Assembly: GCF_016790145.1 (NCBI RefSeq)
Contig: NZ_JAEUOI010000002.1
Coordinates: forward strand, 1-54,764
Direction of reading: 5' to 3'
Length of the DNA: 54,764 nucleotides
DNA from: Propionivibrio sp.
GTDB taxonomy: Bacteria; Pseudomonadota; Gammaproteobacteria; Burkholderiales; Rhodocyclaceae
Part shown: positions 21,700 through 36,635 of the stretch, piece after piece
Layout of the letters: each line of letters starts with the position of its first letter
How positions within the stretch are numbered: position 1 is the stretch's first letter
The notes under the pieces: model-generated
Seen by the model: the letters and a program-made list of their open reading frames with translations, nothing else
The model's database searches: none
Told to the model about the DNA's origin: nothing
Made by a program: the position numbers and the translations under genes

Positions 21700-24615
21700 T
21701 CATGCCAATTGCCGTTCCGCCAGTTCGCGGAAAAGCCCGGGCTGTTCCATTAGTTCGCTGTAGGTACCGGACTGAACAATCCGGCCACGGTCCATCACGA
21801 GTATTCGATCGGCATTGATGATCGTACTCAAACGGTGGGCGATAACGATGCGGGTCGCCTTCAAACGTTCCACCGAATGACTCACCAGGGCCTGGGTACG
21901 GTTGTCCAGCGCGCTGGTGGCTTCATCGAACAGCAACACGCGGGGGTGTCTGACAATGGCGCGGGCGATCATGATGCGCTGCTTCTGGCCGCCGGAGAAG
22001 GTTGAAGCGCCCTCGGCCAGCATGGTGTGCATGCCCATCGGCATGGCTTCAATATCGGCATCCAGCCCACACAGGCGCGCAGCCACCCAGGCGTCATCGA
22101 CAGTCAGGTTGAGGGCTCCGACAATGTTGGTGTAGATGTCGCCAGGCATCAGTTGCCCGGATTGAAGCACTACCCCCATGTGCTTCCTTAACGATTGCAA
22201 ATCCAGGTCTTCCAGATCCTTGCCATCGAAGTAGATCGAGCCGGACTCGGCGCGCTCAAAGCCCAGCAACAGGCGCATCAGCGTCGACTTCCCGGAACCC
22301 GAAGGTCCGACTACGGCCAGGAACTCGCCTTCCCTGGCGGAAAACGAGACGCCGTCGAGAATGGGTGGGCCGTCCTGCCGGTAGCGAAAGACCAGATTGG
22401 ATGCTGAAATGTTTCCTCTCAGTTCATGCACCCGCGTTCTGACCGGATCGGCTTCCGGCTGGGCTTCCAGGATAGGCCGGGCGCGTTCCAGTTGGGGCAG
22501 GAGGTGCAGAAGCGAAAGCAATGTGTTGCTGAAGCCGATGAATTGCAGAAAGAAATTGGCAAACGTTCCCGTGAAGGCAACAAAGGTACCGGTACTGAGC
22601 AGGTTGCCGGCGCCGGCTGAATTTCCTCCCGCGAGCGGTTGCGCTACCAGGTAAAAAATTACGGCACTGGCGATGACCGAAAATGTCGAGACGAAAACGT
22701 CTGCGGCATTGCGCAAAATCTGGGCGTCGATGTGCAAGGATTTTTCTTGGGCAAAGGTCTCCGCCCAGCGGGCGAATGCCCGTCCTTCAGCCGCAGCGAC
22801 GCGCAGCTTGGCGATGCCATTGAGATAGTCGAGTACGCGGCTGCTGAGTTTGCCCTGCAGTGCGACGTTCTGACGCTCCTTGCGCAGAATGAGGTAAGCC
22901 AGAATTCCATTGCCGGCGATCGCGACGACCACCAGGCCAAGCGCGACTAGCGCGAGCATTGGCGAGAGATAGAAGAGCAGGGCGAGATTCAGGAATGAGA
23001 ACAGGCCACCGAGAAGACCACTGATCGTTGTTCCCGAGAGGTGCTGGTAGATGAGGTTAACGGCGTTGATGCGCTGCTCGAGATCGCCTGCGGAGTAATT
23101 CCGGAAAAAGCGGACTGGAAGTTTCAATACCCGGTCCCAGATCGCTGCCTGGAGCGCCGACTCGGTACTGGTTTCCAGGCGCAGCAGGACTTCGGAGCGA
23201 AACAATGAGAAGAGCAAAGCGGCAAACGCCGCTCCAAGGAGGGCAATCACCATTTGCAGGAGCTGGTTCCGGTTCGCCTCCGGTATCACATGGTCGAACA
23301 GATAGCCCATGGCCAGCGGGGCCAGGGTGCCGAGGATGCCCAGAAGCATGGCCATGGACAGGACCATTCCCGCTTCCCGGCGGCGACCGCTGAGGCCAAG
23401 GCGAACCAGGTCAATAATGGCGATGGGCCTGGCCGGCAGACTGCGGAAGAAACCGTAGGCAAAATGGGCAAGCGTTGCGGCCAGCACCGAATCCACTTTC
23501 TGCTGCTCCCCGGTGTGCGGGGAGACCGCGCTATAGCCGCCTGCCCGGTCCGGCAACAGGGCGACGGGTTCTCCGCTTTCCATGGTAAAGCCGACCATCG
23601 GGCCGGCATCCTCCGCCCACCAGCACCCACGCAAGGCCACCCGGCGTTTCTGCACGCGCGCCATATCCGCGAGGACCGCCAGGCGCTCGTCAGCGGGCAG
23701 GTGCAAGGCGTTCGACGGCAGGTCAGGGAAGCTGATGTCCAGTGCGGCGCCGACGATCCGGCAGGCGGACAGCACGGGATCAATGCCACCCTGCCAGGTG
23801 GCTTCGGGCAATCCGGGATCGAGGAGGCCAGCAAGCCGACGCAACCCGCCCTCCATCTGCCGTCCCATCTCTTCGCGCCTGGCTTGCAGGCGTTGTGCAT
23901 CGGCCACGTCGTCGGCGCCGAGTTTCACGATAAACGCCTGCATCAATACCGTCTGCATATTTACCAGCGACGACAGCAGGCGCCGGTCGATGATGATCTG
24001 TCTGAAATCGAGCACCTGCAGCCGCGCTTCACCGCAGCCGGCAATCCAGGCGTCGGCATGCAGGCAAACCACCGATCCTGCCTGGAAAAGCAGCTCCTCG
24101 TTGCCCATCAGGGTGACTTGGCCTTCAATGATTTCCACCCAGCGCATTGCGGACGCTACCGCGCACACCTCGGCATTGCCGAACGGGAAGGGCTCTGTCG
24201 GCTCGGGTTCCCTGTACTGCGAAGGCACCAGACCGGATCGTCCGGCGCGCACCAAGCCACCGATCCATTCGGCGACACTCACTTCCAGTTCATCTCCAGG
24301 TGGCAGCGGGGCACCGGACATCAGCGAGTCAAGCGGCAGCAAGCGGGTTCCCGGCAGCGCTACAAAGCGCACCTGGTAAGCCGCAAGTTGTTCCGGCAGT
24401 TCGCTCCAGACCAGGAAGTTGCCCGCAGTAATCCGGTATACCGCCCGCAAAGCCTGGGCGGTTTCCGTCTGCTTGATCTCGGTCAGGAACAGATCAACCG
24501 CCCCCTCGATAACCAGGGCGGCACGAGGCGAGCCTTCACGAAAAAAATCCACTGCCGGCACGGCGATCGATTCCTGTGCCGCCAGCCACGATGTCCAGTT
24601 GCTGTCCCGAGTCAT
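21700..24615 (-). CDS. NHLM-type peptide exporter, ABC permease/ATP-binding protein 2
   Basis: A 971-aa protein whose large N-terminal region (about residues 1-390) is not a C39 peptidase. An exporter membrane domain with about six hydrophobic segments follows (about 400-700), then an ABC ATPase. Walker A GPSGSGKST is near 765, signature TFSGGQKQR near 870 and Walker B LLFDEATSALD near 893. This architecture matches the second ABC protein of nitrile-hydratase-leader microcin (NHLM) export systems (from memory NCBIfam TIGR03797). It is last in the minus-strand export operon and overlaps the peptidase-exporter gene by four bases, so the two probably act together. Confidence 0.9.
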   Translation of the reverse strand: MTRDSNWTSWLAAQESIAVPAVDFFREGSPRAALVIEGAVDLFLTEIKQTETAQALRAVYRITAGNFLVWSELPEQLAAYQVRFVALPGTRLLPLDSLMSGAPLPPGDELEVSVAEWIGGLVRAGRSGLVPSQYREPEPTEPFPFGNAEVCAVASAMRWVEIIEGQVTLMGNEELLFQAGSVVCLHADAWIAGCGEARLQVLDFRQIIIDRRLLSSLVNMQTVLMQAFIVKLGADDVADAQRLQARREEMGRQMEGGLRRLAGLLDPGLPEATWQGGIDPVLSACRIVGAALDISFPDLPSNALHLPADERLAVLADMARVQKRRVALRGCWWAEDAGPMVGFTMESGEPVALLPDRAGGYSAVSPHTGEQQKVDSVLAATLAHFAYGFFRSLPARPIAIIDLVRLGLSGRRREAGMVLSMAMLLGILGTLAPLAMGYLFDHVIPEANRNQLLQMVIALLGAAFAALLFSLFRSEVLLRLETSTESALQAAIWDRVLKLPVRFFRNYSAGDLEQRINAVNLIYQHLSGTTISGLLGGLFSFLNLALLFYLSPMLALVALGLVVVAIAGNGILAYLILRKERQNVALQGKLSSRVLDYLNGIAKLRVAAAEGRAFARWAETFAQEKSLHIDAQILRNAADVFVSTFSVIASAVIFYLVAQPLAGGNSAGAGNLLSTGTFVAFTGTFANFFLQFIGFSNTLLSLLHLLPQLERARPILEAQPEADPVRTRVHELRGNISASNLVFRYRQDGPPILDGVSFSAREGEFLAVVGPSGSGKSTLMRLLLGFERAESGSIYFDGKDLEDLDLQSLRKHMGVVLQSGQLMPGDIYTNIVGALNLTVDDAWVAARLCGLDADIEAMPMGMHTMLAEGASTFSGGQKQRIMIARAIVRHPRVLLFDEATSALDNRTQALVSHSVERLKATRIVIAHRLSTIINADRILVMDRGRIVQSGTYSELMEQPGLFRELAERQLA

Positions 24616-26801
24616 TCGGCCACCGCCAGACGCCGGTAATTACCCTCCGGTATGGCGAGCAGTTCGTCATGCGTTCCGGCCTCGACGATCCTACCTTCCT
24701 GCAGAACGTAGATTCGGTCGCAGTCGCGTACGGTACTCAGACGGTGGGCGACAATAACACAGGTGCATCCGCGTCGCCGCAGATTCAGATCGATCTCCAT
24801 CTCGACCACGGGGTCGAGCGCGCTGGTCGCCTCGTCAAGCACCAGCATGCGCGGGTCATTGACCAGCGCGCGTGCAAGTTCGAGTCGTTGGCACTGTCCA
24901 CCACTGAAATTTCGCCCCCCCTGGTCGACCTGCCCATCGTAACCTCCGGGCCGGTTCACTATGGCTTCATGCATGCAGGCGTCGGTAGCCGCCCGTACCA
25001 AGGCCGAATCGGAGACCGTTCCATCCCAGAGGGTGAGATTGTCGCGAATGCTCCCCTCGAACAACACGATCTCCTGGTCAACAACCGCCAGGGACAGAGC
25101 CAGCAGATCGCGGTCCCAGGACTGCCGGGGCTTACCATCGAGCAGCACCTCGCCGGACCAGGGTTGATAAATGCCCATCAACAGTCGCGATACGGTCGAC
25201 TTCCCGCACCCCGAGGGGCCGACCAGGGCAATGCGTTGTCCCGGCTCTACGGTGAGGGAAAAGCTGCTGATCAGCGGTGCTGCGGCCCGGTTGTAACCGA
25301 AGGTCACGCCGCGCAGCTCGATGCGGCCCTGGAGCCTGGCGTTGCCTTGTGGCAGAGCCGAGGGCGCTGACAAGCCGCTAGCGGTTTCCGGGGTGACGCG
25401 CTGGACATCGTCAAGGCGGTCCATGTCGCCCTGAAGCTGCTGGATCTGTGCGCCCAGGTTGACCAGCGACTGTACCGGTCCGGAAAAACTCTGGGCCAGG
25501 CTCTGAAAGGCCACCAGCATGCCAACGCTCATCGCCCCGTCCATCACCCGCAAGCCACCGAGACCGACGATCAGCGAAGCCTCGACTGCCGCCAGGGTCA
25601 TCGGCAGCGTATTCAGCAGCAAGGATGAGCGTGCCTGTTCCTGGGTCGACATCAGCCAGCGTGCCTGGTAACCCGCCCACTTCTCGAAAAAATCGGATTC
25701 CGCACCGGAGGCCTTGATGGTTTCCATCAACATCAGGCCGTTCATCGAGGTCCCGACAACCTTCCCGCCATCGATCGCCAGCCGTTGATTCGCGGCCTTG
25801 CGCCGACCGGCCACCGATTGCAGCAGCCCGATATTGGCCACGGCAAAGAATAAACTGACCAGCGACAGCACGATGTCATAGCTGAACATGACCGCCAGAA
25901 AGAACAGGGCAGTGAACAGATTGAGGCCAGCGGCCGGAAGCCCGCTTGAGACCATCTGGGCGACGCGATCGCTGATGGTCAGGCGCGATCCGATCTCACC
26001 GGCATAGCGCTGGGTATAAAACTCGATGGGCAGGTGCAACATATGCCAGAACAGCTTGCTCGCGGTCGCTACGGCGATTGATGACTCCATGCGCAGCAGA
26101 AAATGCTTCTCGATGGCCAGCAGTCCGCCGCGCAGCAGGGCAGTGACAAGCATGCCCACAACGACAGGCAACAGCCACGAGTGCTGTCCGCCGATCATGA
26201 AATCATCAACGAAGATTCTGGAGAAGGCCGGGATGGCCAGTCCGGGAATGACCAGGGTCAGGCCGACCAGGGAGACGAAAGAAAATGCCGACTTGTAGCC
26301 GGAGACCCTGGCCAGCAAGGCCTTGACGACACTGGGCGGTTCGCCCTGTGGACGGAACTCCGGGGTCGTCTCGAAGGTCAGGGCAACGCCGGTGAACGAC
26401 TGGTCGAACTCCTCCCAGGAGGCAATCCGGCATCCGCCGGCAGGGTCATTGAGAGACACCCCCTCAGCAGAGAACCCCTCGACGACCAGGAAGTGATTGA
26501 AGTTCCAGAATACGATCATCGGCAAGGGCAAATCCGACAGAGCGGCCAGCTCCTTGCGGAAGCCGCGGGCGTTCAAGCCGTAGGCCCTGGCCGCCTTGAT
26601 GATGTTGCTGGCCTTGCTGCCATCGCGCGAAACACCGCACTCGAGACGCAGCTCATTGAGGGGTACCCAGCACCCGTAATAGGCCAGAATGCTGGCCAGA
26701 GCCGCCGCGCCGCATTCCACGGCCTCCATTTGCAGTATAACCGGCGTCTTGACCTGACGCAGACGAAAACCCTCCGGTGCCGAGGTGACGGCCTGATCCA
26801 T
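24612..26801 (-). CDS. NHLM-type C39 peptidase/ABC exporter
   Basis: A 729-aa exporter that should cut double-glycine leaders and pump the core peptide out. The N-terminal C39 cysteine peptidase has its triad in view: Cys30 in EAVECGAAAL, His103 in NFNHFLVVEG and Asp119 in LNDPAGG. Membrane segments follow (about 160-440), then the ATPase with Walker A GPSGCGKST near 525, signature NFSGGQCQR near 630 and Walker B VLDEATSALD near 650. Its substrates are very likely the three GG-leader peptides encoded at 31633-35232. It abuts the HlyD-like gene (stop TAG next to ATG) and overlaps the second ABC gene. Confidence 0.94.
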   Translation of the reverse strand: MDQAVTSAPEGFRLRQVKTPVILQMEAVECGAAALASILAYYGCWVPLNELRLECGVSRDGSKASNIIKAARAYGLNARGFRKELAALSDLPLPMIVFWNFNHFLVVEGFSAEGVSLNDPAGGCRIASWEEFDQSFTGVALTFETTPEFRPQGEPPSVVKALLARVSGYKSAFSFVSLVGLTLVIPGLAIPAFSRIFVDDFMIGGQHSWLLPVVVGMLVTALLRGGLLAIEKHFLLRMESSIAVATASKLFWHMLHLPIEFYTQRYAGEIGSRLTISDRVAQMVSSGLPAAGLNLFTALFFLAVMFSYDIVLSLVSLFFAVANIGLLQSVAGRRKAANQRLAIDGGKVVGTSMNGLMLMETIKASGAESDFFEKWAGYQARWLMSTQEQARSSLLLNTLPMTLAAVEASLIVGLGGLRVMDGAMSVGMLVAFQSLAQSFSGPVQSLVNLGAQIQQLQGDMDRLDDVQRVTPETASGLSAPSALPQGNARLQGRIELRGVTFGYNRAAAPLISSFSLTVEPGQRIALVGPSGCGKSTVSRLLMGIYQPWSGEVLLDGKPRQSWDRDLLALSLAVVDQEIVLFEGSIRDNLTLWDGTVSDSALVRAATDACMHEAIVNRPGGYDGQVDQGGRNFSGGQCQRLELARALVNDPRMLVLDEATSALDPVVEMEIDLNLRRRGCTCVIVAHRLSTVRDCDRIYVLQEGRIVEAGTHDELLAIPEGNYRRLAVAE

Positions 26802-28067
26802 CTACAGCCCCCCCAGGGCATTGCGCAACGCCGGAATGAGCAAGGAAATAGGTGGTTGCCGTCGGACAACGATCTCGGCCTGCGCTGGAGTACCGGCAGA
26901 AATCTTCACCGGGGGCCCCTGTTGCGAAGACCACTGGTAGCCGCTGAGGGTAGCGGCGCGAATCAGTTTCGCGCGAAGTTCGATGGGCGACAAACTGCCT
27001 GAAAGTTCACGGACCAGTTCTTCGTTCTGCAATGTACTGCGCATGCTTTGCTGCGTGGCTGGATAGTCTGAGACATAAATCACCTCGCCGATCAGATAAC
27101 CGTATTCCTCACGTCGCACATTGGCCGGCACTACATGCACCGCCATTCCCTTGCTGACCTTCTTGCCATCGCTGGCGGCAAGATAGATCGCCACCTCCAG
27201 CCCGTCGGCGACTTCGCCCTCCGGCTCGACCGTTACCAGGGGCGTGCCAGGTGAAACCAGCGCGCCTGGCGCCACGCGTACCTCGACAACCCGCCCGGCA
27301 TACGGGCTTTCGACGAGGGTCGTCAGGCGTTCGGTCTGCGCCAGACCTTCGACCGCACGTTGCGCCTCGGCGACCTGCGACTTGATCTGGCTTAATTCGG
27401 CCTCGGCCTGTTTTCTAGTATCCAGTTGCTTGAGCGCCAGTTGCCTTGTCTGAACGCGAATGTTCTCGGACTCAAGTCGGGCGCTGGTAAGCTCCATCTG
27501 GGTGGCGAGCAATGTCTGGCGCGTAATCAGTCCCTGTTCGAGCAGGATGGTCTGCGCGGCGACTCGTTCGCCCAGAAGGCGGCTACGCTCCTCGGCGGCT
27601 TTTTGCTGCTGGTTAAACATCGTCTGCTGTTGCTTGATCGATGCCTCGCTGATGTTTTCGCCTTGCTCGAGCAGCGCGTTGATCCGCGCTTCTTGGCGCC
27701 GTAGTTCGGCCAGTCGATCTGCCGCCTGGCGTTGCCTTTCAGTCAGCTCCGGCTGGGATATGCGCGCGATGGTCTGGCCGCGATTCACATGGCCGCCGAT
27801 GCTGACCAGCAGATCCATGACTCGCCCCTGGGCCGCCGAACTGACCTCGGCCAGGCCGCCCCGCTGAAGCAGAATGGCGCGGCCCGAGACCACCGTCGGC
27901 ACCGAGCCGAGGAAGCCCCACACCAGGGCACCGAATACGAGTCCGGCGAGCGGTGCCCACAGCAACCATCCGCGCGGAGTGATGACATGCACCAGTCGAT
28001 CCAGTTGTTCCGGCGAGGACAGCCGATCAAGCGAAACCTGACGGAAGATGTTTTTTCGTTCTGACAT
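26802..28067 (-). CDS. NHLM-type HlyD-like membrane fusion protein
   Basis: A 421-aa periplasmic adaptor linking the inner-membrane ABC exporters to the outer-membrane channel. One transmembrane segment (about residues 34-58, LLWAPLAGLVFGALVWGFLG) is followed by a biotinyl-lipoyl-like half motif (VMDLLVSIGGHVNRGQTIARI). A long Gln/Glu/Arg/Leu-rich coiled coil (about 105-255) precedes the second half motif AGRVVEVRVAPGALVSPGTPLV and a beta-barrel region. It matches the HlyD protein of NHLM systems (from memory TIGR03794). It sits 12 bases after the TolC-like gene and directly before the peptidase-exporter gene. Confidence 0.9.
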   Translation of the reverse strand: MSERKNIFRQVSLDRLSSPEQLDRLVHVITPRGWLLWAPLAGLVFGALVWGFLGSVPTVVSGRAILLQRGGLAEVSSAAQGRVMDLLVSIGGHVNRGQTIARISQPELTERQRQAADRLAELRRQEARINALLEQGENISEASIKQQQTMFNQQQKAAEERSRLLGERVAAQTILLEQGLITRQTLLATQMELTSARLESENIRVQTRQLALKQLDTRKQAEAELSQIKSQVAEAQRAVEGLAQTERLTTLVESPYAGRVVEVRVAPGALVSPGTPLVTVEPEGEVADGLEVAIYLAASDGKKVSKGMAVHVVPANVRREEYGYLIGEVIYVSDYPATQQSMRSTLQNEELVRELSGSLSPIELRAKLIRAATLSGYQWSSQQGPPVKISAGTPAQAEIVVRRQPPISLLIPALRNALGGL

Positions 28068-28079
28068 GAGTATCCGTCC

Positions 28080-29693
28080 TCAGGGCAAGGCAAAGCGCAT
28101 GAAGCTGGCGAGATTGACTTCGAACTGATCGCCCGCGGTTCCCACCAGGGCATCGACTTCATGCCCGAGCCTGACCACGCTGATGGCATAAGTGCTACGG
28201 CGTTGCACTTCGTCGAGCAGGGCACGGAAATAGCGATCTTCAACGTTGATGACGTCGATCAGCGTGGCCACGCCAAGACGGCGCCTGGTGCGTTCATGCT
28301 CAAGCGTTTTGGCATAGCGCTCGACGATCTGCGCGGAACCGCGCAAAGCATCGGCCGAGCGGCGGACCAGCGCCGACGAGGCTTCCACGGCCGCACCGAT
28401 GTCGGCGCGCAGAGGCTCACGACGAATCTCGGCTTCGCTGAGCAGGGCGGAGGCCTGCCGCATCTGTCCGGTGGCGGTATTGTTGCCGACCGGAAGCTGA
28501 AAATTGAGAATGGCCGCGACCGATGGCCCTGCAGCATTGCCGCCTACGGGGTTCACCACACCGGAGATGCCGGCGCCTTCCTGCAGGCTGTTGGAACTGA
28601 CGAGCAGGGTCAAATCAATCTGCGGCCGGGTCAGATCCCTGCTGCCGGCCAGACGTTCGCCCAGCGCCAGGACGCGTCGCTCGATCGCCTGCCAGTCACC
28701 GCGCCGGAGCAGCGCCCGCTCCAGCAAAAGGTTCACTGCGGGCAGGTTGGTGACTGCCTCAGGCGCCGGTGGCGGGGTAAGCGGCTGGCCGATTTCCCTT
28801 TGCAGTTGCGAGGTCAGCCCCATCCTTCTGCCAAGTGCTTGCTGGGCTTCCAGCAAGGCTTGCTCGGCAATGATGCGGCTATTGATCCGTTCGAAGTGGT
28901 TGGCCTGGGCCAGGTCGATGTCGGCCGCCGGAACCTCATCCGCAGCGACCAGTTTGCGCAGTTCCTGGAGCAGACCCAGCGTCCGCTCTTCACCGCTGCG
29001 CGTGATTTCCAGTTGTCGCCATCGGCTGCTGTATTCCCAATAGGCAATCGCCGCATCGCGCAGGGCCAGAGAGACGGCATAGCGCCTTTCTGCGCTCGCC
29101 GCCGCCAAATCCTGCTCGCCGGCCTTCAGCGTCGAGTTTGCCGAATTGCCTTCGCCGGCACCCCTGGCCAAGGGAACACGCAGTCCGAAAGCAATCGACC
29201 GGGTGGTCTGGGAGGGAAGCCCCAAAACCCTCGATGTGCTGTTCTGCAGGTAGGTGGACGCAGCGCTACCGAGGAGCGTCGGCCCCGAGCGCAGGCGCTT
29301 CTCCACGCTCGCATCAAGACCGGATCCACTGCCGCTCAGGTCGGTAAGAACCGGCGTGACAAATTGCTCTGCCTGGGTCAGGGGGCGCCGGTCCTCATTC
29401 CGACGAGCTTCGACTGTCAGCAAGGGATCGAAGGTCCCCAGTGCCTGCTGCACAAGAGCATCTGCAATCTGCACCTGGGCTTCGCTGATCTGCACGTCGC
29501 GATTGCCATGCAGGGTCACAAGAATGGCATCGTTAAGCGACAGGCCGCTGACCGTCTGGGCAAGCGCCGGAGTCGTGCAGCCAATCCACATTACCGCCGC
29601 CAATGCAGCAAGCACGCTGTGCGGATGACGTCGGCAGTTGCCGATGGACGTTGCGTAGTCAATCATGCCAGGGGTCACGCGCTTCAGGCTCAA
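28080..29693 (-). CDS. TolC-family outer-membrane efflux protein
   Basis: A 537-aa outer-membrane channel protein. A signal peptide (HSVLAALAAVMWIGCTTPALAQ, ending near residue 46) precedes two repeats rich in Ala, Leu, Gln and Arg that form the alpha-helical tunnel. Typical features are SLNDAILVTLHGNRDVQISEAQ at the start and LGVATLIDVINVEDRYFRALLDEVQRR near the end. It completes a tripartite exporter with the HlyD and ABC proteins of the same operon. It lies 12 bases after the cyclic-nucleotide-binding gene. The exact start is uncertain because several upstream codons could serve. Confidence 0.88.
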   Translation of the reverse strand: MSLKRVTPGMIDYATSIGNCRRHPHSVLAALAAVMWIGCTTPALAQTVSGLSLNDAILVTLHGNRDVQISEAQVQIADALVQQALGTFDPLLTVEARRNEDRRPLTQAEQFVTPVLTDLSGSGSGLDASVEKRLRSGPTLLGSAASTYLQNSTSRVLGLPSQTTRSIAFGLRVPLARGAGEGNSANSTLKAGEQDLAAASAERRYAVSLALRDAAIAYWEYSSRWRQLEITRSGEERTLGLLQELRKLVAADEVPAADIDLAQANHFERINSRIIAEQALLEAQQALGRRMGLTSQLQREIGQPLTPPPAPEAVTNLPAVNLLLERALLRRGDWQAIERRVLALGERLAGSRDLTRPQIDLTLLVSSNSLQEGAGISGVVNPVGGNAAGPSVAAILNFQLPVGNNTATGQMRQASALLSEAEIRREPLRADIGAAVEASSALVRRSADALRGSAQIVERYAKTLEHERTRRRLGVATLIDVINVEDRYFRALLDEVQRRSTYAISVVRLGHEVDALVGTAGDQFEVNLASFMRFALP

Positions 29694-29705
29694 TCCTGTT
29701 CCAGG

Positions 29706-30236
29706 TTAACCGATGAGCTTCTTGAGCATGCGATCGAATCGACTTCCTGCCAGATGCAAGGTATCCAGCACGTGACCGTCAAGTTCGCCAAGCTGCATCT
29801 CATCGACGTCGCCTGCTGACTCGCCATAACCGAAACGGGCGAGAACATTGCGCATGCGATCGGCCAGAAAGATCGCAATCGACTTGTAGAAGCGGGCCGC
29901 AAAAGCGGCATCGGCGGCCATTCTCTGGCTGATCAGACGATGTTCTACCGCAAGTACCAGTACCTCGCTGATGGTCTGCACGGAAGCCGACGTGGGACTG
30001 TCGTCAACGAAGGACATTTCTCCCAGGATATCGCCCACCCCCACTCTGGCAATTTCCTGGCCTTGAGCGGCAAGGACCTTGAGCTCGCCATCGAGAACAA
30101 TGAATAACTGTTCAAGGTGTTCGCCCTGCCGAACCAGCAGTTCGCCGGATTTGACATGCAGCCGTTTGCCGACTACCGCCAGCCAGTCAGTATCCTGGTC
30201 TGTCAGTTGCCCGAGAATGTACAAGACCTTGCGCAT
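29706..30236 (-). CDS. Cyclic-nucleotide-binding domain protein of the export operon
   Basis: A 176-aa protein with a single cNMP-binding beta-roll (about residues 15-115: LLVRQGEHLEQLFIVLDGELKV, GVGDILGEMSFVDDSPTSASV). Its helical tail has no helix-turn-helix, so it is not a CRP-like DNA binder. Small proteins of this kind accompany NHLM and other bacteriocin-type transporters (from memory the family named bacteriocin-type transport-associated protein). A role in gating or regulating export by cAMP or c-di-GMP is possible but unproven. GGGAGGGG sits just before the ATG. It is the first gene of the five-gene minus-strand operon. Confidence 0.82.
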   Translation of the reverse strand: MRKVLYILGQLTDQDTDWLAVVGKRLHVKSGELLVRQGEHLEQLFIVLDGELKVLAAQGQEIARVGVGDILGEMSFVDDSPTSASVQTISEVLVLAVEHRLISQRMAADAAFAARFYKSIAIFLADRMRNVLARFGYGESAGDVDEMQLGELDGHVLDTLHLAGSRFDRMLKKLIG

Positions 30237-30626
30237 ATACCCCTCCCGATGACGCTTCCGGTGGTTATCGAGTGACTGCGCAAATGCGCGAACTCTTATG
30301 TCTCGTGTGAAGCGAACATGTCACTGTAAATAATAACAGCAAGCAGATTCTCTCCGCCAGATTAGTTGGTCAGGGAACAGCAACCGATCCGAACCGGTGC
30401 GCCAGAAAAATGTGAAATGCATTCAGCGGTTCTCCGAAGCAGCTTTTCGGGCGGTGCAAGCTCAACTCCCCATTGCTCGTGAAGAATTGTCTGGTGGCCA
30501 GTGATCGCAGAACTCTCTTGATGATCGTTGGCAAACCTGGGGAGAACCATTTCGCCATCCTCTGTAATCTGCTTTTCTCTTTGGTCAAGGTGCTGTAAGG
30601 TATCAAGAGTCTGTTTCTCCAGGCCC
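30237..30626. promoter_or_regulatory. Divergent control region between the export operon and the CRP-type regulator
   Basis: This 390-base spacer must hold the promoters of both the minus-strand exporter operon and the plus-strand regulator. TGTGA (30306-30310) and TCAC (30321-30324) form half-sites like the operators described below, but 10 bases apart instead of 5. On the minus strand, the half GTGACAT is identical to one half of those operators. A palindromic TGCGCAAATGCGC lies just beside it. Short frames cross the rest but show no coding character. Confidence 0.35.
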
Positions 30627-31268
30627 ATGATGGATACACTTCCGGAATTCCCTGATCTCACCGCCTCCGAGCTTGCTGCCCTTCTGGAGCGAGCCGTGCT
30701 GCGCTCGTATCCGAAAAATTCAGTCATCATCAACGAGGGAGACCAAGGCGACAGTGTTTATTTCGTCATCCAGGGCAAGGTCAAGGTCTTCCTATCGAAC
30801 GACCAGGGGCGCGAGGTTGTCATCGGTCAGCTCGGGCCGGGTGACTATTTCGGAGAAATGCTGCTCGAACCCGGCTCACGTTCCGCGTCGGTGATGACGC
30901 TAGAGGCCTCGCGCTTTGCCCTCGTGCGGATCGAAGAGTTTCGCGAGTTCCTGAAAAGTCACCCGGATTTCGTCCTCGCCCTGATGGGAAAACTGATACG
31001 TCGAAGCCGCACCCTGGCGCGCAATGTCAAGAGTCTGGCCCTGCTCGACGTCTATGGACGCCTGGCCCAGCTTCTGCACGAACTGGCTCGTCAGCAGGGA
31101 GAGACCTGGTTGATCGACGAACCCCTGACACAGCAGGAAATGGCCAGCCGCATCGGTTCGTCGCGGGAAATGATCAGCCGTATCTTCAAGGACCTGGTGG
31201 CCGGCGGTTACCTGACCGTGTCGCGCCAGCGCATCGAGATCAGGCGTCGCTTGCCAACTGCATGGTGA
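30627..31268 (+). CDS. CRP/FNR-family transcriptional regulator of the peptide cluster
   Basis: A 213-aa activator-type protein. The N-terminal cNMP-binding domain has the phosphate-binding cassette FGEMLLEPGSRSASV (about residues 78-92), whose G-E and R-S-A match those of E. coli CRP, so cAMP or a similar ligand is plausible. There is no cysteine, so it is not an FNR-type iron-sulfur sensor. In the C-terminal winged helix (about 165-205) the recognition helix SREMISRIFK keeps the R-E...R residues by which CRP reads TGTGA. Matching sites exist at 31345 and 34436. ATG 30627 or the adjacent ATG 30630 is the start. Confidence 0.9.
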   Translation: MMDTLPEFPDLTASELAALLERAVLRSYPKNSVIINEGDQGDSVYFVIQGKVKVFLSNDQGREVVIGQLGPGDYFGEMLLEPGSRSASVMTLEASRFALVRIEEFREFLKSHPDFVLALMGKLIRRSRTLARNVKSLALLDVYGRLAQLLHELARQQGETWLIDEPLTQQEMASRIGSSREMISRIFKDLVAGGYLTVSRQRIEIRRRLPTAW

Positions 31269-31632
31269 GCGCGCCAGCAGCAAAATTGATGAGGAATTGC
31301 TGATTGGGAATTGTTAAAGACTGGCGACAATTCCTGTTTGTACTTGTGAATATGTCACACTGTTCGTTGTTAATTAGGTCGCTTTACCGACTTATCGGGT
31401 CGGGTTATTCTTTGATACAAGAAGTCATAACGAGTGTTGGTCTGACAATGCGTATACAAATAAACAATTTATTGCGATTCTAAGCCTCGGGCTTTGGATT
31501 TCGGATTTTCAGAGAATGTAATTGTCATTTTTACACGCAGCCATAAATAGTAGCTTAAATGGATGCCCAACCTTAAGCCCAGGGGCGTCCTGCATGTTTC
31601 GGGCTTTGTTGTCTAATTTGGAGGTAGTGATC
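31269..31632 (+). promoter_or_regulatory. Long leader region of precursor gene 1
   Basis: This 364-base, AT-rich spacer contains the CRP-like operator (31345-31359) and a small hairpin AAGCC-TCG-GGCTT (31482-31494), perhaps the end of the regulator transcript. A possible promoter follows, with -35 TTGTCA at 31522-31527 and -10-like TAAATA at 31544-31549. A second hairpin, AAGCCC (31575-31580) with GGGCTT (31601-31606), lies just before the GGAGG ribosome site. No gene is evident. Confidence 0.4.
31345..31359. promoter_or_regulatory. CRP-like operator 1
   Basis: TGTGA-ATATG-TCACA is a 15-base inverted repeat, 77 bases after the regulator stop. The half-sites equal the CRP consensus; the spacer is 5 rather than the usual 6 bases. 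Fourteen bases (31346-31359) match the site at 34436-34449 with a single difference. It is probably bound by the regulator encoded just upstream and should control precursor 1 and the maturases behind it. Confidence 0.6.
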
Positions 31633-31830
31633 ATGTCAGATGCTTACAAGAAGCCAGAGGGCGATAACGTTGTTGTCGTTACGAACACCGATATGGAATT
31701 GAACGAAGAGGATCTCGCCAAGGTCGCCGGGGGAATGATGATGTCGGGCGGCGGCACCAGCGCAAAATCCAAGACCATTAATGGACTGGATACGACCAGG
31801 CCTACCTATGACACGGATGTAGGGTTCTGA
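31633..31830 (+). CDS. RiPP precursor peptide 1 (double-glycine leader, graspetide-like core)
   Basis: A 65-aa peptide, led by a good GGAGG 9 bases before the ATG. Residues 1-34 form an acidic leader ending in MELNEEDLAKVAGG, a classic double-glycine cleavage site for C39 peptidases. The core would be residues 35-65: a Met/Gly/Ser-rich start (MMMSGGGTSAKSK) and a tail containing TTRPTYDTD. Hydroxyl donors (T, T, T, Y) and acidic acceptors (D, D) around a proline resemble the ester/amide cross-linked cores of microviridin-like graspetides. The next gene is an ATP-grasp maturase, which supports that reading. The exact core motif is not one I know. Confidence 0.85.
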   Translation: MSDAYKKPEGDNVVVVTNTDMELNEEDLAKVAGGMMMSGGGTSAKSKTINGLDTTRPTYDTDVGF

Positions 31831-31833
31831 ATC

Positions 31834-31852
31834 AAGCAGGTCAATCCTGCTT
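31834..31852 (+). terminator. Small hairpin directly after precursor 1
   Basis: AAGCAGG-TCAAT-CCTGCTT is a perfect 7-bp stem beginning 4 bases after the precursor stop and followed by AAATTG. It may protect the 3' end of the precursor mRNA or pause RNA polymerase. It lacks a clear T-run. Confidence 0.4.
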
Positions 31853-31890
31853 AAATTGAACACAGTGCGAAACAAGTACTGTATGTTTTT

Positions 31891-31925
31891 GAGGGCGGGC
31901 GGAGCATAATCCTTTTCCCGCCCTC
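31891..31925 (+). terminator. Terminator/attenuator between precursor 1 and the ATP-grasp gene
   Basis: GAGGGCGGG (31891-31899) pairs perfectly with CCCGCCCTC (31917-31925), giving a 9-bp GC-rich stem with a 17-base loop, followed by TTATTTAG. It lies 23 bases before the maturase start. Partial termination here would make precursor mRNA more abundant than enzyme mRNA, a common device in peptide clusters (inference). Confidence 0.65.
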
Positions 31926-31947
31926 TTATTTAGGGTGCTGCTGCGAA

Positions 31948-32919
31948 ATGATTCTGATCATAGCCAAGCATAATGAACCCACTGCGATTTTGATTAACGA
32001 ATTGCTTCAGCAGCAGAAACAAAATTCGGTACTTGTTGATCTTGAATGTTTCCCCGCTCACGATACGCTTGCATTTCGCCATTCTGCCAAGCATGGCTCA
32101 AGTGTTGTTTATAACCAGGCGAAAGGCTGTGCAATTCCTCTGGAAAAAATCAGTTCCATTTTCTGGTGGAGGCCAGAGTTACCAAAAGCCAGCCCGGATC
32201 TGACGGATGTTGCACTGGTAACGCATATCGAGGAAGCATCGGCGGAAGTCGTCTACGGTATTTTTGATGATCTCGACTGTCTGCATTTCCCATGTTCGCG
32301 TCATACGATGCGGCGTGCGAAGTTGAAACTACCCCAATTGACGCTGGCAGCCAAACTGGGATTTCATATCCCTGAAACGTTGGTTACGAACGACCCTGAA
32401 GCATTTCTGGATTTTTTCAACGCCGCACAAACCCGCGTCATTACCAAACCTGCCGTCGCACTACCCAATCCGATTTTTCGTGAGGTTGTATTTGGTTATG
32501 CGAATCTGGTACAGCCTCGAGATCTATTGTATTTTCAGGATGTCCGCTTGTGCCCTTTCATCGCACAACACTACGTTGAGAAGAAAGTTGAGATCAGGGT
32601 AACTGTAGTCGGGCCAGATGTTTTTGCAGCAGAGATTCATTCACAGTCAACCAACAGAACGAAAACTGACTGGCGACATTACGACGACGGCAATACGCCA
32701 CACTTCGTTCACCAATTACCTGAAGAGATTGAACAGTTGTGCAGGAAGCTTGTCGTTGCGATGGGACTGCTTTATGGGGCTATCGACCTCATATTGACTC
32801 CCGCTGGAGATTATTTTTTCCTTGAGATCAATCCTGCGGGCCAGTTTGGCTGGATTGAAGGCATGACCGGCTTACCGATCAGCCAGCGGATCGTTAGAAT
32901 GCTCGTCGATCATGTGTAG
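31948..32919 (+). CDS. ATP-grasp peptide maturase (graspetide synthetase-like)
   Basis: A 323-aa ATP-grasp ligase of the MvdD/MdnB-MdnC kind, which joins side-chain carboxylates of a precursor peptide to hydroxyl or amino side chains using ATP. An N-terminal pre-ATP-grasp region holds IFWWRPELPKASPD (about residues 71-84), the counterpart of the W-x-R-R segment of microviridin ligases. The central part holds KLKLPQLTLAAKLGFHIPETLVTND and ITKPAV, and the Mg-ATP end is FFLEINPAGQFGWIE (about 290-304). The presumed substrate is precursor 1 just upstream. The gene is AT-richer than the flanking chromosome, as is its downstream partner, suggesting transfer. Confidence 0.88.
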   Translation: MILIIAKHNEPTAILINELLQQQKQNSVLVDLECFPAHDTLAFRHSAKHGSSVVYNQAKGCAIPLEKISSIFWWRPELPKASPDLTDVALVTHIEEASAEVVYGIFDDLDCLHFPCSRHTMRRAKLKLPQLTLAAKLGFHIPETLVTNDPEAFLDFFNAAQTRVITKPAVALPNPIFREVVFGYANLVQPRDLLYFQDVRLCPFIAQHYVEKKVEIRVTVVGPDVFAAEIHSQSTNRTKTDWRHYDDGNTPHFVHQLPEEIEQLCRKLVVAMGLLYGAIDLILTPAGDYFFLEINPAGQFGWIEGMTGLPISQRIVRMLVDHV

Positions 32920-32973
32920 GCGCTATTATGGAGTAGAACCAAACGCATCAGAAAATCAGGCAAAGGATTGTCG

Positions 32974-34029
32974 ATGAATGCATTAACTGATCAATCACAA
33001 ATCCTCTTGTCTTTCATTGCGGACCTCAGCCGCCAGAACCTACTTCCTGAAGAGGCGCTAAACAACTTGAAGCACTTAAAGGGCGATTTCCCGGACTGTG
33101 CTTTGGATCTGGTGTGGGAACTCGATGATGCATCAGGCCTGTATTGCTACTGCCTGTTGGTTACCAGCGATAGTGGGACGCTGTCTCTTAGTGCCACGCA
33201 AAACGGCGTTCTGCCATGGTCATTAAGGGGCGGGGTTCGGCTTGACTCCAATATCCTTGTTAAGGTGAATGGAAATCCACTAACCGTTGTGCAAGCAATT
33301 ACCTATGTGGATCTTGTCCTGAGTAAGGGTAATCTGTTCACGGACTTGGTCGATTACGGCTTGTTGGCAGCGCAGGCAAAGCATTTCGATGTGCCCGTTT
33401 CCAAGGAGCAATTGGACACCGCGACAAGCAACTATTTTGCATCAAGAGGTATTACAGGCGGGGTTGAGATCGCTGCTTGGTTAGGTCAAAGAGGTCTGAC
33501 TATTGAGCGCTTCCGGACTTTCATCGAAGATGGCATGCGAAGCCGTGCTGTAGAACGTCATCTCGCTTCATCCATTGAGGTGGCGAGCATTGATTTCTCC
33601 CCGAATGCACTCGGATCCATCCCGGTTTCACGAATCAGCCTGCCAGCCCAGTTGACCGAGCTTGCCACGGAAATTTTGCGGAAGCACCCTGGAGATGACT
33701 TGCCTGCCCTTACTCGAAAAATTGCAGAGGCTTGCGATTTCAAAGCAATGCTCAAAATTGAGTTTGTGCGATTGTTTAACTTCGAGTTGGTCAGCCTTTT
33801 CCCCGATAGATCAGATTTTCCAGTAGGGAAAGTACTGGTCAGTGCTGACAATGGCACGGGTATCGAAATCATGCAGGTGCTAGGGTCCGCCGATATCCCT
33901 TCATCATCACAGAGGGAAATCAGGCGGGTGCAGAAAGCTGTGCAGGCGTGGTATGAAAATGAAAGAGCTAAAGCGAAAGTTGAATGGAATTGGGGAAAAG
34001 CGAATTTTGGGATGATTTCGCTGAAATAG
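32974..34029 (+). CDS. PpiC/SurA-related putative peptide maturation protein
   Basis: A 351-aa protein without signal peptide. Residues 1-100 form a domain I do not recognise. From about residue 110 there is a SurA/PpiC-like N-domain pattern (VKVNGNPLTVVQAITYVDLVL, DVPVSKEQLDTATSNYFASRGI, WLGQRGLTIERFRTFIEDGMR). No complete parvulin catalytic domain follows. I recall a family called putative peptide maturation system protein (TIGR04500), PpiC-related and found beside such ATP-grasp and NHLM genes; this fits. It may bind or chaperone the precursor. AAAGGA at 32962-32967 supports ATG 32974 over TTG 32968. Confidence 0.75.
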   Translation: MNALTDQSQILLSFIADLSRQNLLPEEALNNLKHLKGDFPDCALDLVWELDDASGLYCYCLLVTSDSGTLSLSATQNGVLPWSLRGGVRLDSNILVKVNGNPLTVVQAITYVDLVLSKGNLFTDLVDYGLLAAQAKHFDVPVSKEQLDTATSNYFASRGITGGVEIAAWLGQRGLTIERFRTFIEDGMRSRAVERHLASSIEVASIDFSPNALGSIPVSRISLPAQLTELATEILRKHPGDDLPALTRKIAEACDFKAMLKIEFVRLFNFELVSLFPDRSDFPVGKVLVSADNGTGIEIMQVLGSADIPSSSQREIRRVQKAVQAWYENERAKAKVEWNWGKANFGMISLK

Positions 34030-34040
34030 TTGTTTATTAT

Positions 34041-34335
34041 TGCCGGGATCGGGCTCGCGTTCCGTGTCGGTGATGACGCTGATGCCTCGCACTTTACCGA
34101 CGTGCGGATCGAATAGTTTCACGAGTTCCTGAAAGGTCGCCCGAATTTCGTACTCCCCCTCATGGGCAAACCTATACGTCGAAGCCGCACACTTACACAG
34201 CAGGAAATGGCCTGCCGCATCGGTTCGTCGCGGGAAATGATCAGCCGCATCTTCAAGGACCTGGTGGCCGGCGGTTATCTGACCGTGACACGCCAGCGCA
34301 TCGAGATCAGACGTCGTCTGCCGACCGCCTGGTGA
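34041..34335 (+). pseudogene. Decayed 3' copy of the CRP-type regulator gene
   Basis: This stretch matches the 3' part of the intact regulator (about 30870-31268) over nearly its whole length. It is nearly identical in the helix-turn-helix part and again ends in ...TAW and TGA (34333-34335). It is broken three ways: no 5' half, a GAG to TAG stop at 34114-34116, and an internal deletion of roughly 105-110 bases matching about 31013-31120. It follows the PpiC-related gene after 11 bases. With the intact gene it forms direct repeats around the first precursor/maturase cassette. Confidence 0.9.
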
Positions 34336-34435
34336 ATTGAACCAGCGTGTCATCTATTGAGACTGGTGCTCAGCGTATTCTCGCGGCCAATGCTGAAGAC
34401 CAATCTGTGAGCGGACATGAATCCTGTCAACCGGG

Positions 34436-34449
34436 GTGAATAAGTCACA
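34436..34449. promoter_or_regulatory. CRP-like operator 2
   Basis: GTGAATAAGTCACA differs at one base from operator 1 and lies 100 bases after the end of the regulator pseudogene, a position like that of operator 1 after the intact gene. Its centre is about 60-65 bases before the start point predicted from TATAGT at 34495-34500, the distance of a class I CRP-activated promoter. It should control precursors 2 and 3 and the methyltransferase. Confidence 0.6.
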
Positions 34450-34494
34450 TCCCGGCTGTGCCGCAGGTCAATGGCTACGCTCTGAATAATCATC

Positions 34495-34500
34495 TATAGT
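34495..34500 (+). promoter_or_regulatory. -10 element for precursor 2
   Basis: TATAGT (5 of 6 consensus bases) lies 53 bases before the precursor 2 ATG. No good -35 is present at 16-18 bases upstream, as expected for a promoter that depends on an activator bound at 34436-34449. Confidence 0.4.
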
Positions 34501-34553
34501 CTGTTCAAGCGTTGCGATTCCGTAGCGCGATGCCGCACACCAAGGAGATCATC

Positions 34554-34727
34554 ATGACGAATACCAGCAAGCCATCGGCACAGGAAACGCCTGAAAAAAC
34601 CCAGGAAATCGAGACAACGCCGGAGAGCGAACTTTCCGATGACGCGCTTGACCAGGTGTCTGGCGGACTTAAGCGATTGGCGAGGGGTCCGGGAACGCAG
34701 ACAGAGGACGATGTTTACGTCGGCTGA
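34554..34727 (+). CDS. RiPP precursor peptide 2 (double-glycine leader)
   Basis: A 57-aa peptide with AAGGAG 6 bases before the ATG. The leader (residues 1-38) is rich in Glu, Thr, Ser and Pro and ends in SELSDDALDQVSGG, aligned with the leader ends of precursors 1 and 3. The 19-residue core is LKRLARGPGTQTEDDVYVG: a basic half, a Gly-Pro, then a Thr/acidic half (TQTEDD). The Thr and Glu/Asp side chains could be ATP-grasp substrates like precursor 1, or it may be processed differently. No dedicated enzyme lies directly beside it. Confidence 0.78.
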   Translation: MTNTSKPSAQETPEKTQEIETTPESELSDDALDQVSGGLKRLARGPGTQTEDDVYVG

Positions 34728-34771
34728 TGCCCATCTGCAAGCGCAGCCTGACAATCAAAGAGAGCTTCGCA

Positions 34772-34897
34772 ATGAACTCGAAGCAGCCCATTGACCCGCA
34801 CCAACAACAGCCGCAATATCTTGTTAGCACCCTTGAATTTTCTATCCATGGCTGGCGTGGGGTGCCCCAGCCCAACCCTAGAGGAGTCCAATCATGA
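34772..34897 (+). CDS. Possible 41-aa ORF coupled to precursor 3
   Basis: An ATG at 34772, with GAGAG about 9 bases upstream, opens a 41-codon frame (MNSKQPIDPHQQQPQYL and so on) whose TGA overlaps the precursor 3 ATG as ATGA. It has no double-glycine leader, signal peptide or known motif and is rich in Gln and Pro. The overlap suggests translational coupling. It could be a leader ORF, an unrecognised small peptide, or chance. Confidence 0.3.
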   Translation: MNSKQPIDPHQQQPQYLVSTLEFSIHGWRGVPQPNPRGVQS

Positions 34898-35232
34898 GCC
34901 TGGAATCATTCAATGCCTTCATGGCTAAAATCAATGCCGATGAAATGCTGCGCAACGAACTGAAGCAAGCCAATCCTGACGGAATGACGATCGAAGCGCT
35001 AGCCGACGTAGCCGCCCAGCATGGCTTCAGCTTTGCCGCGCAGGACGTTAGCAACGAGTTGTCCGAAAAGGATCTGGACGTGGTCGCTGGTGGTTATTCC
35101 TTTGATCCCGGTTCCACCAGGCTTGGCACACAGAAACTGGGCGCAGCCGGCGGTTCAGCGTTTACCATTAAAGGCGATTTCCAAAATATGTCGTTTCAAC
35201 CGGGAGGTGTACTGATATTCAAGCCCCAGTGA
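34894..35232 (+). CDS. RiPP precursor peptide 3 (Nif11-type leader)
   Basis: A 112-aa precursor. Residues 1-67 form a Nif11-like leader (MSLESFNAFMAKINADEMLRN, then GMTIEALADVAAQHGF) ending in NELSEKDLDVVAGG, a double-glycine site. The 45-residue core starts YSFDPGST and is rich in Gly, Phe, Thr and Ser, with no cysteine, so lanthionine or thioether chemistry is excluded. GAGGAG precedes the ATG. The stop overlaps the start of the methyltransferase gene (GTGA), so the enzyme probably acts on this peptide. Nif11-type peptides are standard cargo of NHLM exporters, as encoded at 21700-30236. Confidence 0.88.
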   Translation: MSLESFNAFMAKINADEMLRNELKQANPDGMTIEALADVAAQHGFSFAAQDVSNELSEKDLDVVAGGYSFDPGSTRLGTQKLGAAGGSAFTIKGDFQNMSFQPGGVLIFKPQ

Positions 35233-36635
35233 CCGCTGAGGGCAGCGCACTGCCCAAGAAGCACTCGCTCCCGGCTCCCAGCTTTCCGGACCGCTCGACT
35301 CGCGACAGGGTCTTTGCAGCGCTTGAGGCTGCACGGCAGTGTGGACGAAGCTCGACCCTGGGCATACTCTTCACGGACGGCTACGCGCTGTCGACCGTAA
35401 CGGTGAGCGAAGCTATCGGTGATGCACTGAACGCATTGATCGCCGCCAACATGGTCGCGGTCGATGGCCAACAGGTTTCGGCGACGGTCCGACTGCAATA
35501 CTACGCTGGCTGTTACTTCACCAGCGATCGCCCCGAGTTGCATCGGGACCGCTTTGCCGACTTCGTTCTCGGAGTGGGGTTTGCCACTCGGAACTTCGCC
35601 GAAATGATGCCGCTACGACCGGGTAGTTCGGTACTCGACCTTGGCTGCGGCTGTGGCGTACTCGCGGTGCTCAGTGCGCCGCTGGCGTCTGCGGTGATGG
35701 CCGTCGACATCAATCCGCGCGCGCTCGCTTTCACCCGCTTCAACGCCGAGCTGAACGGCTTCCCGCATATCGAAACGGCCCTTGGTGATCTGTTCGCTCC
35801 CGTGCACGCTCGGCGCTTCGATGTCATTGTCTCCAATGCTCCGTATGTCATCTCGCCGGCGTCGACCTACCGCTATCGGGACGGTGGCGCCGGCATCTGC
35901 GAGCGTATTGCCCGCCAGGCACCCGCACTGCTCACTGCCGGCGGCTGCCTGATGCTCGCCGCAAGCTGGCCCGAGCATCGTGGACGATCCTGGCAGGGCG
36001 AACTCGCGCATTGGTTCGAGTCATCGGGTTGCGATGTATGGGTGCTGGCCACCGATCACCTGCTCCCCGATGACTACGCCCGCGTGTGGCTGGCGCAGGA
36101 ATATGGCGACATCGTTCCGACCGAGGCGATCAATAGCTGGCTTGCCGCATATAACGCCGCCGACATCACCATGCTGCACTGCGGCTTCGTGCTGCTCAGC
36201 CACGCGCCAGGCCGCGAGCCGTGGATCGAGATACGCGAGTTGCCGCCCGGCGGCGGACGGCGCGGCGAGTCGCTTGATCGCATTCTCGCCGCACGCGACC
36301 TGGCTGCACGCAGCGACGACGCAGCGCTGATCGAACTGAGACTGGCCCCGCTTGCCGGGCTTGAAGCGATCGAACGCCGTCGCCCCGGAGCGAGCGGCTG
36401 GTGCGTCGAGCGTGTCGATCTGCGAGCGGCCGACGGCCTGCGGATCGCCATGCGGGTCGATCCGCTCGCCGCCGACTTGCTCGGCTGGATGGACGGGTCG
36501 CGCAGCGCAGCCGAAGCCGCTACGGCGTTCGCGCAGGCGCGTGGGCTTGCAGCCGAGACGATCATTGGTGCGCTGCCTGCTTTGCTGCGCAAACTGCTCG
36601 AAGCTGGGCTGATCGTTCCAGCTACAGATTCCTGA
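35229..36635 (+). CDS. SAM-dependent methyltransferase coupled to precursor 3
   Basis: A 468-aa protein of three parts. An N-terminal helical region (about residues 1-110) precedes a HemK/RsmC-like class I methyltransferase (about 110-300) with motif I VLDLGCGCGVLAVL near 136 and VSNAPYV near 203, an N-x-P-Y type active site. The C-terminal part (about 300-468) ends with LLGWMDGSRSAAEAA and LLRKLLEAGLIV. This resembles the tail of PqqD-like peptide-recognition domains, though weakly. It starts with GTG inside the precursor 3 stop, without its own ribosome site. N-methylation of a core amide or side chain is plausible. It is GC-richer than the first cassette. Confidence 0.78.
   Translation: MTAEGSALPKKHSLPAPSFPDRSTRDRVFAALEAARQCGRSSTLGILFTDGYALSTVTVSEAIGDALNALIAANMVAVDGQQVSATVRLQYYAGCYFTSDRPELHRDRFADFVLGVGFATRNFAEMMPLRPGSSVLDLGCGCGVLAVLSAPLASAVMAVDINPRALAFTRFNAELNGFPHIETALGDLFAPVHARRFDVIVSNAPYVISPASTYRYRDGGAGICERIARQAPALLTAGGCLMLAASWPEHRGRSWQGELAHWFESSGCDVWVLATDHLLPDDYARVWLAQEYGDIVPTEAINSWLAAYNAADITMLHCGFVLLSHAPGREPWIEIRELPPGGGRRGESLDRILAARDLAARSDDAALIELRLAPLAGLEAIERRRPGASGWCVERVDLRAADGLRIAMRVDPLAADLLGWMDGSRSAAEAATAFAQARGLAAETIIGALPALLRKLLEAGLIVPATDS

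Follow-up and report, generated by a model that had tools for sequence, protein, structure and literature searches.

Can peptides modified by different chemistries share one exporter and one regulatory switch? This question is raised by a locus of Propionivibrio sp., contained in a window of 54,764 nucleotides (the whole stretch of DNA that was analysed; contig NZ_JAEUOI010000002.1), in which an NHLM-type export operon lies beside three small precursor genes, an ATP-grasp ligase gene, a gene for a PpiC-related protein and a methyltransferase gene. The locus is probably an island for ribosomally synthesised and post-translationally modified peptides (RiPPs), composed of one NHLM export operon and, next to it, two tandem precursor cassettes, each headed by a regulator gene. 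Cassette A, which would direct the synthesis of a graspetide, consists of crp, precursor 1, the ATP-grasp ligase and the PpiC-related protein; cassette B, which would direct that of a second product, consists of a broken crp copy, precursor 2, a Nif11 precursor referred to as precursor 3, and the methyltransferase. The genome is a 4.05-Mb draft of 239 contigs (99.8% complete), and the window is located on its contig 129.

The division into two tandem regulator-precursor-enzyme units is inferred from the broken crp copy that separates the two branches. Across 294 aligned bases this copy shares 88.8% identity with the 3' portion of the intact crp. It lacks the 5' part, has deletions of 111 bp (internal) and 1 bp, and carries an in-frame TAG. 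Over 47 residues of the DNA-binding end it is 96% identical to the local Crp, compared with 36% for the next full-length paralog of the genome. The original prediction, made from the sequence alone, had counted one CRP-type regulator; a single intact one is indeed present, and the second, broken copy, which had been overlooked, is probably the remnant of a second regulator-led cassette. The intact gene likely starts at 30627 or 30630, and not at 30528.

The remaining components of that prediction were recovered by profile matches and inspection of the reading frames: an export operon of five genes (21700-30236), a regulator divergent from it, three different precursors with double-glycine leaders, an ATP-grasp maturase and a PpiC-related protein (both matching their families below the curated cut-offs), and a methyltransferase overlapping one precursor gene. 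Coordinates and scores are given in Table 1.

Table 1. Features of the island, in order of position, with the matches on which each assignment is based (bit scores compared with the cut-off of the family).
Feature	Coordinates	Strand	Evidence and remarks
NHLM ATP-binding cassette (ABC) transporter without peptidase	21700-24615	-	TIGR03797, 872.1 bits (above cut-off 709.4)
NHLM ABC transporter with C39 peptidase	24612-26801	-	TIGR03796, 1011.3 bits (above cut-off 853.3)
HlyD-type periplasmic adaptor	26802-28067	-	TIGR03794, 352.8 bits (above cut-off 156.2)
TolC-like outer membrane channel (OEP)	28080-29693	-	PF02321, 65.9 bits (above cut-off 22)
Cyclic-nucleotide-binding protein of the kind found near such exporters	29706-30236	-	TIGR03896, 140.7 bits (below cut-off 161.05)
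Near match to the candidate operator	30312-30324	+	2 mismatches; exporter/crp divergent region; weak on its own
Crp/Fnr-type regulator, intact	30627-31268	+	PF00027, 83.7 bits; PF13545, 53.6 bits (both above cut-offs); divergent from exporter
Candidate operator before precursor 1	31346-31358	+	Palindrome, GTGAATATGTCAC
Precursor 1, graspetide type	31633-31830	+	Leader motif; TIGR04497, 18.7 bits (below cut-off 32); core MMMSGGGTSAKSKTINGLDTTRPTYDTDVGF
ATP-grasp ligase, graspetide synthetase type	31948-32919	+	TIGR04187, 204.3 bits (below cut-off 350)
PpiC-related protein	32968-34029	+	TIGR04500, 130.6 bits (below cut-off 180), match spanning almost the full profile; ATG 32974 is the likelier start
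Broken second crp copy	34041-34335	+	Separates the PpiC-related gene from precursor 2
Candidate operator before precursor 2	34436-34448	+	Palindrome, GTGAATAAGTCAC
Precursor 2	34554-34727	+	Leader motif ELSDDALDQVSGG; no family above cut-off; core LKRLARGPGTQTEDDVYVG
Precursor 3, Nif11 leader	34894-35232	+	TIGR03798, 49.7 bits (above cut-off 32.3); PF07862, 37.9 bits (above cut-off 23.8); 45-residue core
S-adenosylmethionine-dependent methyltransferase	35229-36635	+	PF05175, 63.1 bits (above cut-off 23); start GTG at 35229

The exporter was assigned to the NHLM type because TIGR03794, TIGR03796 and TIGR03797 are all matched above their curated cut-offs. The C39 peptidase profile PF03412 has a single match in the whole genome, located in the C39 ABC transporter of the operon, which supports the claim that one exporter is involved. 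The TIGR03896 match of the cyclic-nucleotide-binding protein is limited to profile positions 139-317, and a protein 46.6% identical to it adjoins an NHLM exporter in a genome of the same order (G1030). The NHLM exporter genes of G1030 are also accompanied by a Gly-Gly precursor (locus L052, 7964-8200, + strand), the core of which repeats the motif KLEK(I/V)(T/V)VTAKR.

The three precursors have one leader end in common (ELNEEDLAKVAGG, ELSDDALDQVSGG and ELSEKDLDVVAGG), which resembles the Nif11-type motif printed as ELSDEELEAVAGG in the available part of PMC2887384. Hydrophobic residues, as read off the sequence, occupy positions -4, -7 and -12 in all three leaders; the same positions are described for recognition by LahT, which, with as many as nine putative precursors, illustrates that several peptides can in principle be served by one exporter (PMC10885120, as far as its accessible text goes). 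The search expression for the leader motif was composed after inspection of the three leaders, so that its three matches in the window are to be expected; elsewhere, in 722,783 bases from other loci (overlapping loci being counted repeatedly, and loci copying the window being excluded) it returned five rows that correspond to three distinct sites, one of them in the same genome. Precursor 1 was given the start ATG 31633, which is preceded by GGAGGT, in place of the 31522 of the open reading frame (ORF) list. A TIGR03798 match above cut-off together with a Gly-Gly leader end is found in precursor 3 only. In the plasmid collection, precursor 1 had no match and precursor 3 had one, confined to the leader part. 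The C39 peptidase of the sole exporter would cleave the leaders after Gly-Gly and export the cores, and all the peptides are probably exported in this way through one exporter under one switch.

A probable fourth Gly-Gly precursor with the same leader end was observed on contig 22 of the genome (locus L106, 3625-3951, - strand); it is Nif11-like, with a 59-residue core and a TIGR03798 score of 17-18 bits, below cut-off. In the 9.4 kb of contig 22 around it, the window proteins were matched weakly only, the best being the PpiC-related protein (E-value 0.005).

Cassette A was compared with the rosaritide system of the group 21 graspetides. Graspetides are characterised by links that join Ser/Thr or Lys to the side chains of Asp/Glu within the core peptide. 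According to the available sections of PMC13097080, this system comprises MirA, MirB (TIGR04187), MirC (TIGR04500) and MirD (TIGR03796); MirC is required for rosaritide and co-purifies with MirB, and the acceptors Asp22, Asp24 and Asp26 come after Arg20-Pro21. The same sections mention clusters of new graspetide groups that contain enzymes of other classes, e.g. lanthipeptide dehydratases. In an earlier listing, a TIGR04500 cluster with 40 occurrences is placed among the ATP-grasp companions (PMC8939145). Cassette A and the exporter present the same gene set, i.e. a precursor, a TIGR04187-type ligase, a TIGR04500-type PpiC-related partner and a TIGR03796 exporter, the two enzyme matches being real and below cut-off. 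The core end of precursor 1 likewise carries Arg-Pro followed by Asp-x-Asp (R22-P23-T-Y-D26-T-D28), so that two of the three rosaritide acceptor positions recur at equal distance from Arg-Pro; D19 could be a third acceptor, judged from precursor 1 itself and not from an alignment with MirA. Here only, as far as the consulted sections of PMC13097080 go, are HlyD and TolC proteins associated with the exporter, and a Crp-type regulator and a second cassette present.

The agreement with rosaritide is incomplete. Thr occupies in precursor 1 the place of the first acceptor Asp of rosaritide, and the ligase has EIR where MirB has a conserved DFR motif (a motif given by the same source for MirB, and not for the whole of group 21); the aligned place reads EVR in a Herpetosiphon ligase and ELR in a Nonomuraea one, to which the ligase is 37.6% and 40.1% identical. 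Both enzymes score below the curated cut-offs; that of TIGR04187 is also missed by the Herpetosiphon protein (241.8 bits), and that of TIGR04500 is exceeded by its Herpetosiphon counterpart (514.7 bits). Since two cut-offs and the DFR motif fail, cassette A was not classed as a group 21 member. On plasmid pHAU01 of Herpetosiphon aurantiacus, a small ORF is followed first by an ATP-grasp gene and then by one for a TIGR04500 protein, the order seen here, but no NHLM exporter or methyltransferase was matched in 25 kb of that plasmid, and the PpiC-related proteins are 26% identical; the search of the Nonomuraea locus gave no PpiC-related match. From the rosaritide layout, the listing in PMC8939145 and this Herpetosiphon gene row, it appears that cassette A works like a group 21 graspetide system without being classed there. 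Its PpiC-related protein would act as the partner of the ligase, and the ligase would link Ser/Thr to Asp side chains, residues that are present in the precursor 1 core, within the core end TTRPTYDTDVGF. The original prediction knew of no described system with this set of genes; for cassette A this was rejected, the ligase, PpiC-related and NHLM layout being that of group 21 in the accessible part of PMC13097080, and it holds for the methyltransferase branch, which is without parallel in the genomes searched.

Searches for relatives of cassette A were performed at several taxonomic levels. Within the family, 5 of 248 other genomes had an ATP-grasp match (33-39% identity); these were rejected as relatives, no PpiC-related, precursor or methyltransferase match being found in the five extended loci, one of which ends in an ABC transporter fragment and another of which has weak ABC matches. 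Within the class, TIGR04500 was matched at an E-value of 0.001 in 40 of 369 genomes (own included), none above cut-off (130 bits here, 90 for the next), and below cut-off it is also matched in 2 of 14 control genomes. The loci of two of the 39 other TIGR04500 genomes (G411 and G444) were extended, and C39-type ABC matches were found in both and a PpiC match in G444 only (E-value 0.007); the TIGR04500 matches in other genomes of the class are taken as putative chaperone-type proteins. Neither the PpiC-related protein nor the methyltransferase had a relative in the viral contigs searched, and the plasmid collection yielded one record for the former and 86 for the ligase, the neighbourhoods of five of which, Herpetosiphon included, were read.

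A first alternative, possible but less likely than not, is that the ATP-grasp ligase also acts on precursor 2, the graspetide branch then having two peptides and the methyltransferase serving the Nif11 peptide alone. The core end of precursor 2, TQTEDDVYVG, would offer Thr donors and Glu/Asp acceptors and bears some apparent likeness to the TYDTDVGF of precursor 1, but the gene lies beyond the broken crp and adjoins the Nif11 gene, and its product has a short core and no family match above cut-off.

The function proposed for cassette B is based on gene position and on the overlap of the methyltransferase start with the Nif11 precursor stop by 4 nucleotides (GTGA). The methyltransferase would be translationally coupled to the Nif11 precursor and would N-methylate its core. 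The MTS-type domain of the enzyme contains the motif SNAPY, which we read as a variant form of the N-methyltransferase site NPPY. Its best solved relative is a gentamicin N-methyltransferase (5u4t, 5u18 and 5tyq; E-value 9e-22, residues 61-295), an aminoglycoside enzyme by name, with chains of 320-341 residues; the last ~170 residues of the methyltransferase of the window have no counterpart in these chains. The motif and this relative together favour N-methylation, and the methyltransferase most likely N-methylates the Nif11 core, perhaps on Gln or Asn. The C-terminal end matches PF25004 (DUF7782) with 27.1 bits, the cut-off being 27, so that of the DUF7059-MTS-DUF7782 architecture the MTS domain is present, DUF7782 is borderline and DUF7059 was not found at an E-value of 0.1; all three are carried by a relative from Tsukamurella, and a relative in a genome of the same order (G1156) has MTS only. 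A weak PqqD-like match at the end of the protein (19.3 bits, below the cut-off of 23.4), which could mark a peptide-binding domain of the RRE type, was dropped as a sign of RiPP function because the Tsukamurella relative, which is found in ordinary surroundings, has one too (21.6 bits). Predicted structure models of the methyltransferase were poor (mean predicted local distance difference test scores of 34.7 and 41.4).

Nif11 leader peptides encoded with a TIGR03794/03796/03797 exporter are known from NHLM/Nif11 precursor systems, the partners of which, in the available part of PMC2887384, are cyclodehydratase and LanM-like enzymes, in contrast to the methyltransferase found here. Cassette B was found in no other genome among those searched and, among the literature matches listed, no title or shown abstract describes this gene combination (most subscription papers being outside the coverage). 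Co-occurrence of the modifying enzymes with NHLM genes in related genomes, proposed in the original prediction as support for one system, failed to appear: own genome always included, the methyltransferase was matched in 1 of 249 genomes of the family (E-value 1e-20), 2 of 250 of the order and 3 of 398 of the phylum (E-value 1e-18), and the PpiC-related protein in 1 of 300 of the order, i.e. its own. The three non-self methyltransferase matches in the order and phylum genomes are partial (42-45% identity), the neighbourhood of one of them (G1156) having been read, and none of the 19 plasmid records matched covers 80% of the protein. A scan of genome contigs with the methyltransferase returned four distant loci, one of them with an ABC match, using search words that missed the catalytic motifs, so that nearer relatives were possibly overlooked. 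The best of these four loci, from a Gemmatimonad (L048, 5000-13258), places the relative among genes that read as type VI secretion; the G1156 relative (locus L105, 7424-9223, - strand) has a QPPY motif and stands beside unrelated genes.

These surroundings bear on a second alternative, which we regard as unlikely, namely that the methyltransferase does not tailor a peptide and either protects the producer (e.g. by target modification) or is an unrelated passenger. The three distant relatives examined (Tsukamurella, Gemmatimonad and G1156) all adjoin non-RiPP genes, so that the methyltransferase family has, in part, the unrelated contexts that had been named in advance as evidence against a single system, and the nearest solved relative is the gentamicin enzyme; on the other side, the beginning of the methyltransferase gene and the end of the Nif11 precursor gene overlap.

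The two cassettes would be joined under the surviving intact Crp-like regulator by one palindrome. The palindrome GTGAATAnGTCAC has two exact occurrences in the 4.05-Mb genome, one ahead of the first precursor of each cassette, and the reversed control is not matched anywhere in it. A 13-mer with palindromic ends common to both spacers was obtained in none of 400 shuffles, and in none of 100 when any spacer of 4-8 was allowed. Its half-sites look like those of Crp. The palindrome is named here as a candidate only, the probable common operator of both cassettes. The promoter and terminator scan gave nothing beyond shuffles.

As regards the origin of the island, the distance between its two flanking genes, those for cobalamin adenosyltransferase and TamB (tamB), is about 1.15 kb in the sister genome G1003, compared with 16.9 kb here; the block is absent from G1003, and the flanking similarity to this genome continues past tamB. 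At an E-value of 1e-150, TIGR03796 was matched in none of 27 other genomes of the genus, several of which are incomplete. We take the block to be an insertion in this lineage. The inserted stretch also holds a MazE-like antitoxin and PIN-domain pair (36758-37431), between the methyltransferase and tamB; the MazE query had no match in the corresponding G1003 stretch. The G + C content at third codon positions is 0.488 in the ligase gene and 0.525 in the PpiC-related gene. Higher values are seen in four exporter genes (0.697-0.758), crp (0.71), the methyltransferase gene (0.727) and three flanking genes (0.686-0.763). This composition difference suggests that cassette A may have been added to an island already holding cassette B and the exporter.

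Besides the departures of cassette A from rosaritide and the surroundings of the methyltransferase relatives, several results count against the explanation by two cassettes under one regulator. The operator was first spotted by eye and tested afterwards, and when the palindrome condition is dropped, 8 of 100 shuffles yield a common 13-mer. Aligned locally, the two precursor spacers give a borderline score (23, with the 95% mark at 22 and a shuffle maximum of 30), and the exporter/crp spacer does not exceed the 95% mark with either of them. GTGA-N5-TCAC has two matches in the window for 0.65 expected (16 of 100 shuffles reach two), and the longer pattern, with at most two mismatches, has four for 2.1 expected (20 of 100 reach four). 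The palindrome has a spacing of 5, and not the 6 of the Crp site, the pattern of which had no match in the window. Concerning the insertion, 24 other genomes of the genus carry the left flank gene, and tamB was seen within 1.5 kb of it in G1003 only, so that the empty site is supported by one genome; in six genomes of the genus extended by about 17 kb beyond that gene, tamB was not found. The compositional divide is not clean, the cyclic-nucleotide-binding gene being at 0.633 and the three precursor genes at 0.584-0.636. Finally, both cassettes together were met in none of the other genomes searched.

That the two cassettes are unrelated neighbours, B being a decaying leftover and the graspetide branch alone active, is quite improbable: although the crp of cassette B is broken, the enzymes of the two branches differ in composition and a second genome with both is lacking, the reading frames of precursors 2 and 3 and of the methyltransferase are unbroken, the leader motifs are preserved, and the GTGA overlap and the palindrome ahead of precursor 2 have both been retained.

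The tandem arrangement of two cassettes beside one export operon remains the preferred explanation. The sequence itself shows the gene content, the families, the leader end common to the precursors, the broken crp copy, the difference in composition, the palindrome in both cassettes and the lack of the block between the flanking genes of G1003; the pairing of enzymes with substrates, the chemistry, the binding of the regulator to the operator and the export are inferred from it. The combinatorial cluster of the original prediction keeps its one exporter, its common leader end, its two kinds of enzyme and a probable common operator, with the corrections that the layout of cassette A is a known one and that the locus has held more than one crp. 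A bolder version, which we hold possible though doubtful, is that of a modular island that grows by stacking: a regulator gene, an operator, a precursor and a chemistry would arrive together with each cassette, one crp copy would then decay, and the surviving regulator and the exporter would serve all the peptides. Cassette B would in that case represent a new RiPP class, in which a relative of the gentamicin N-methyltransferase N-methylates side chains of a Nif11 peptide.

The partner-dependent graspetides gain here a divergent relative that is associated with an HlyD/TolC exporter, and the island further provides a coupled Nif11/methyltransferase pair. Its organisation suggests a route to new peptide chemistries without a new exporter, in which peptides with the right leader end plug in.

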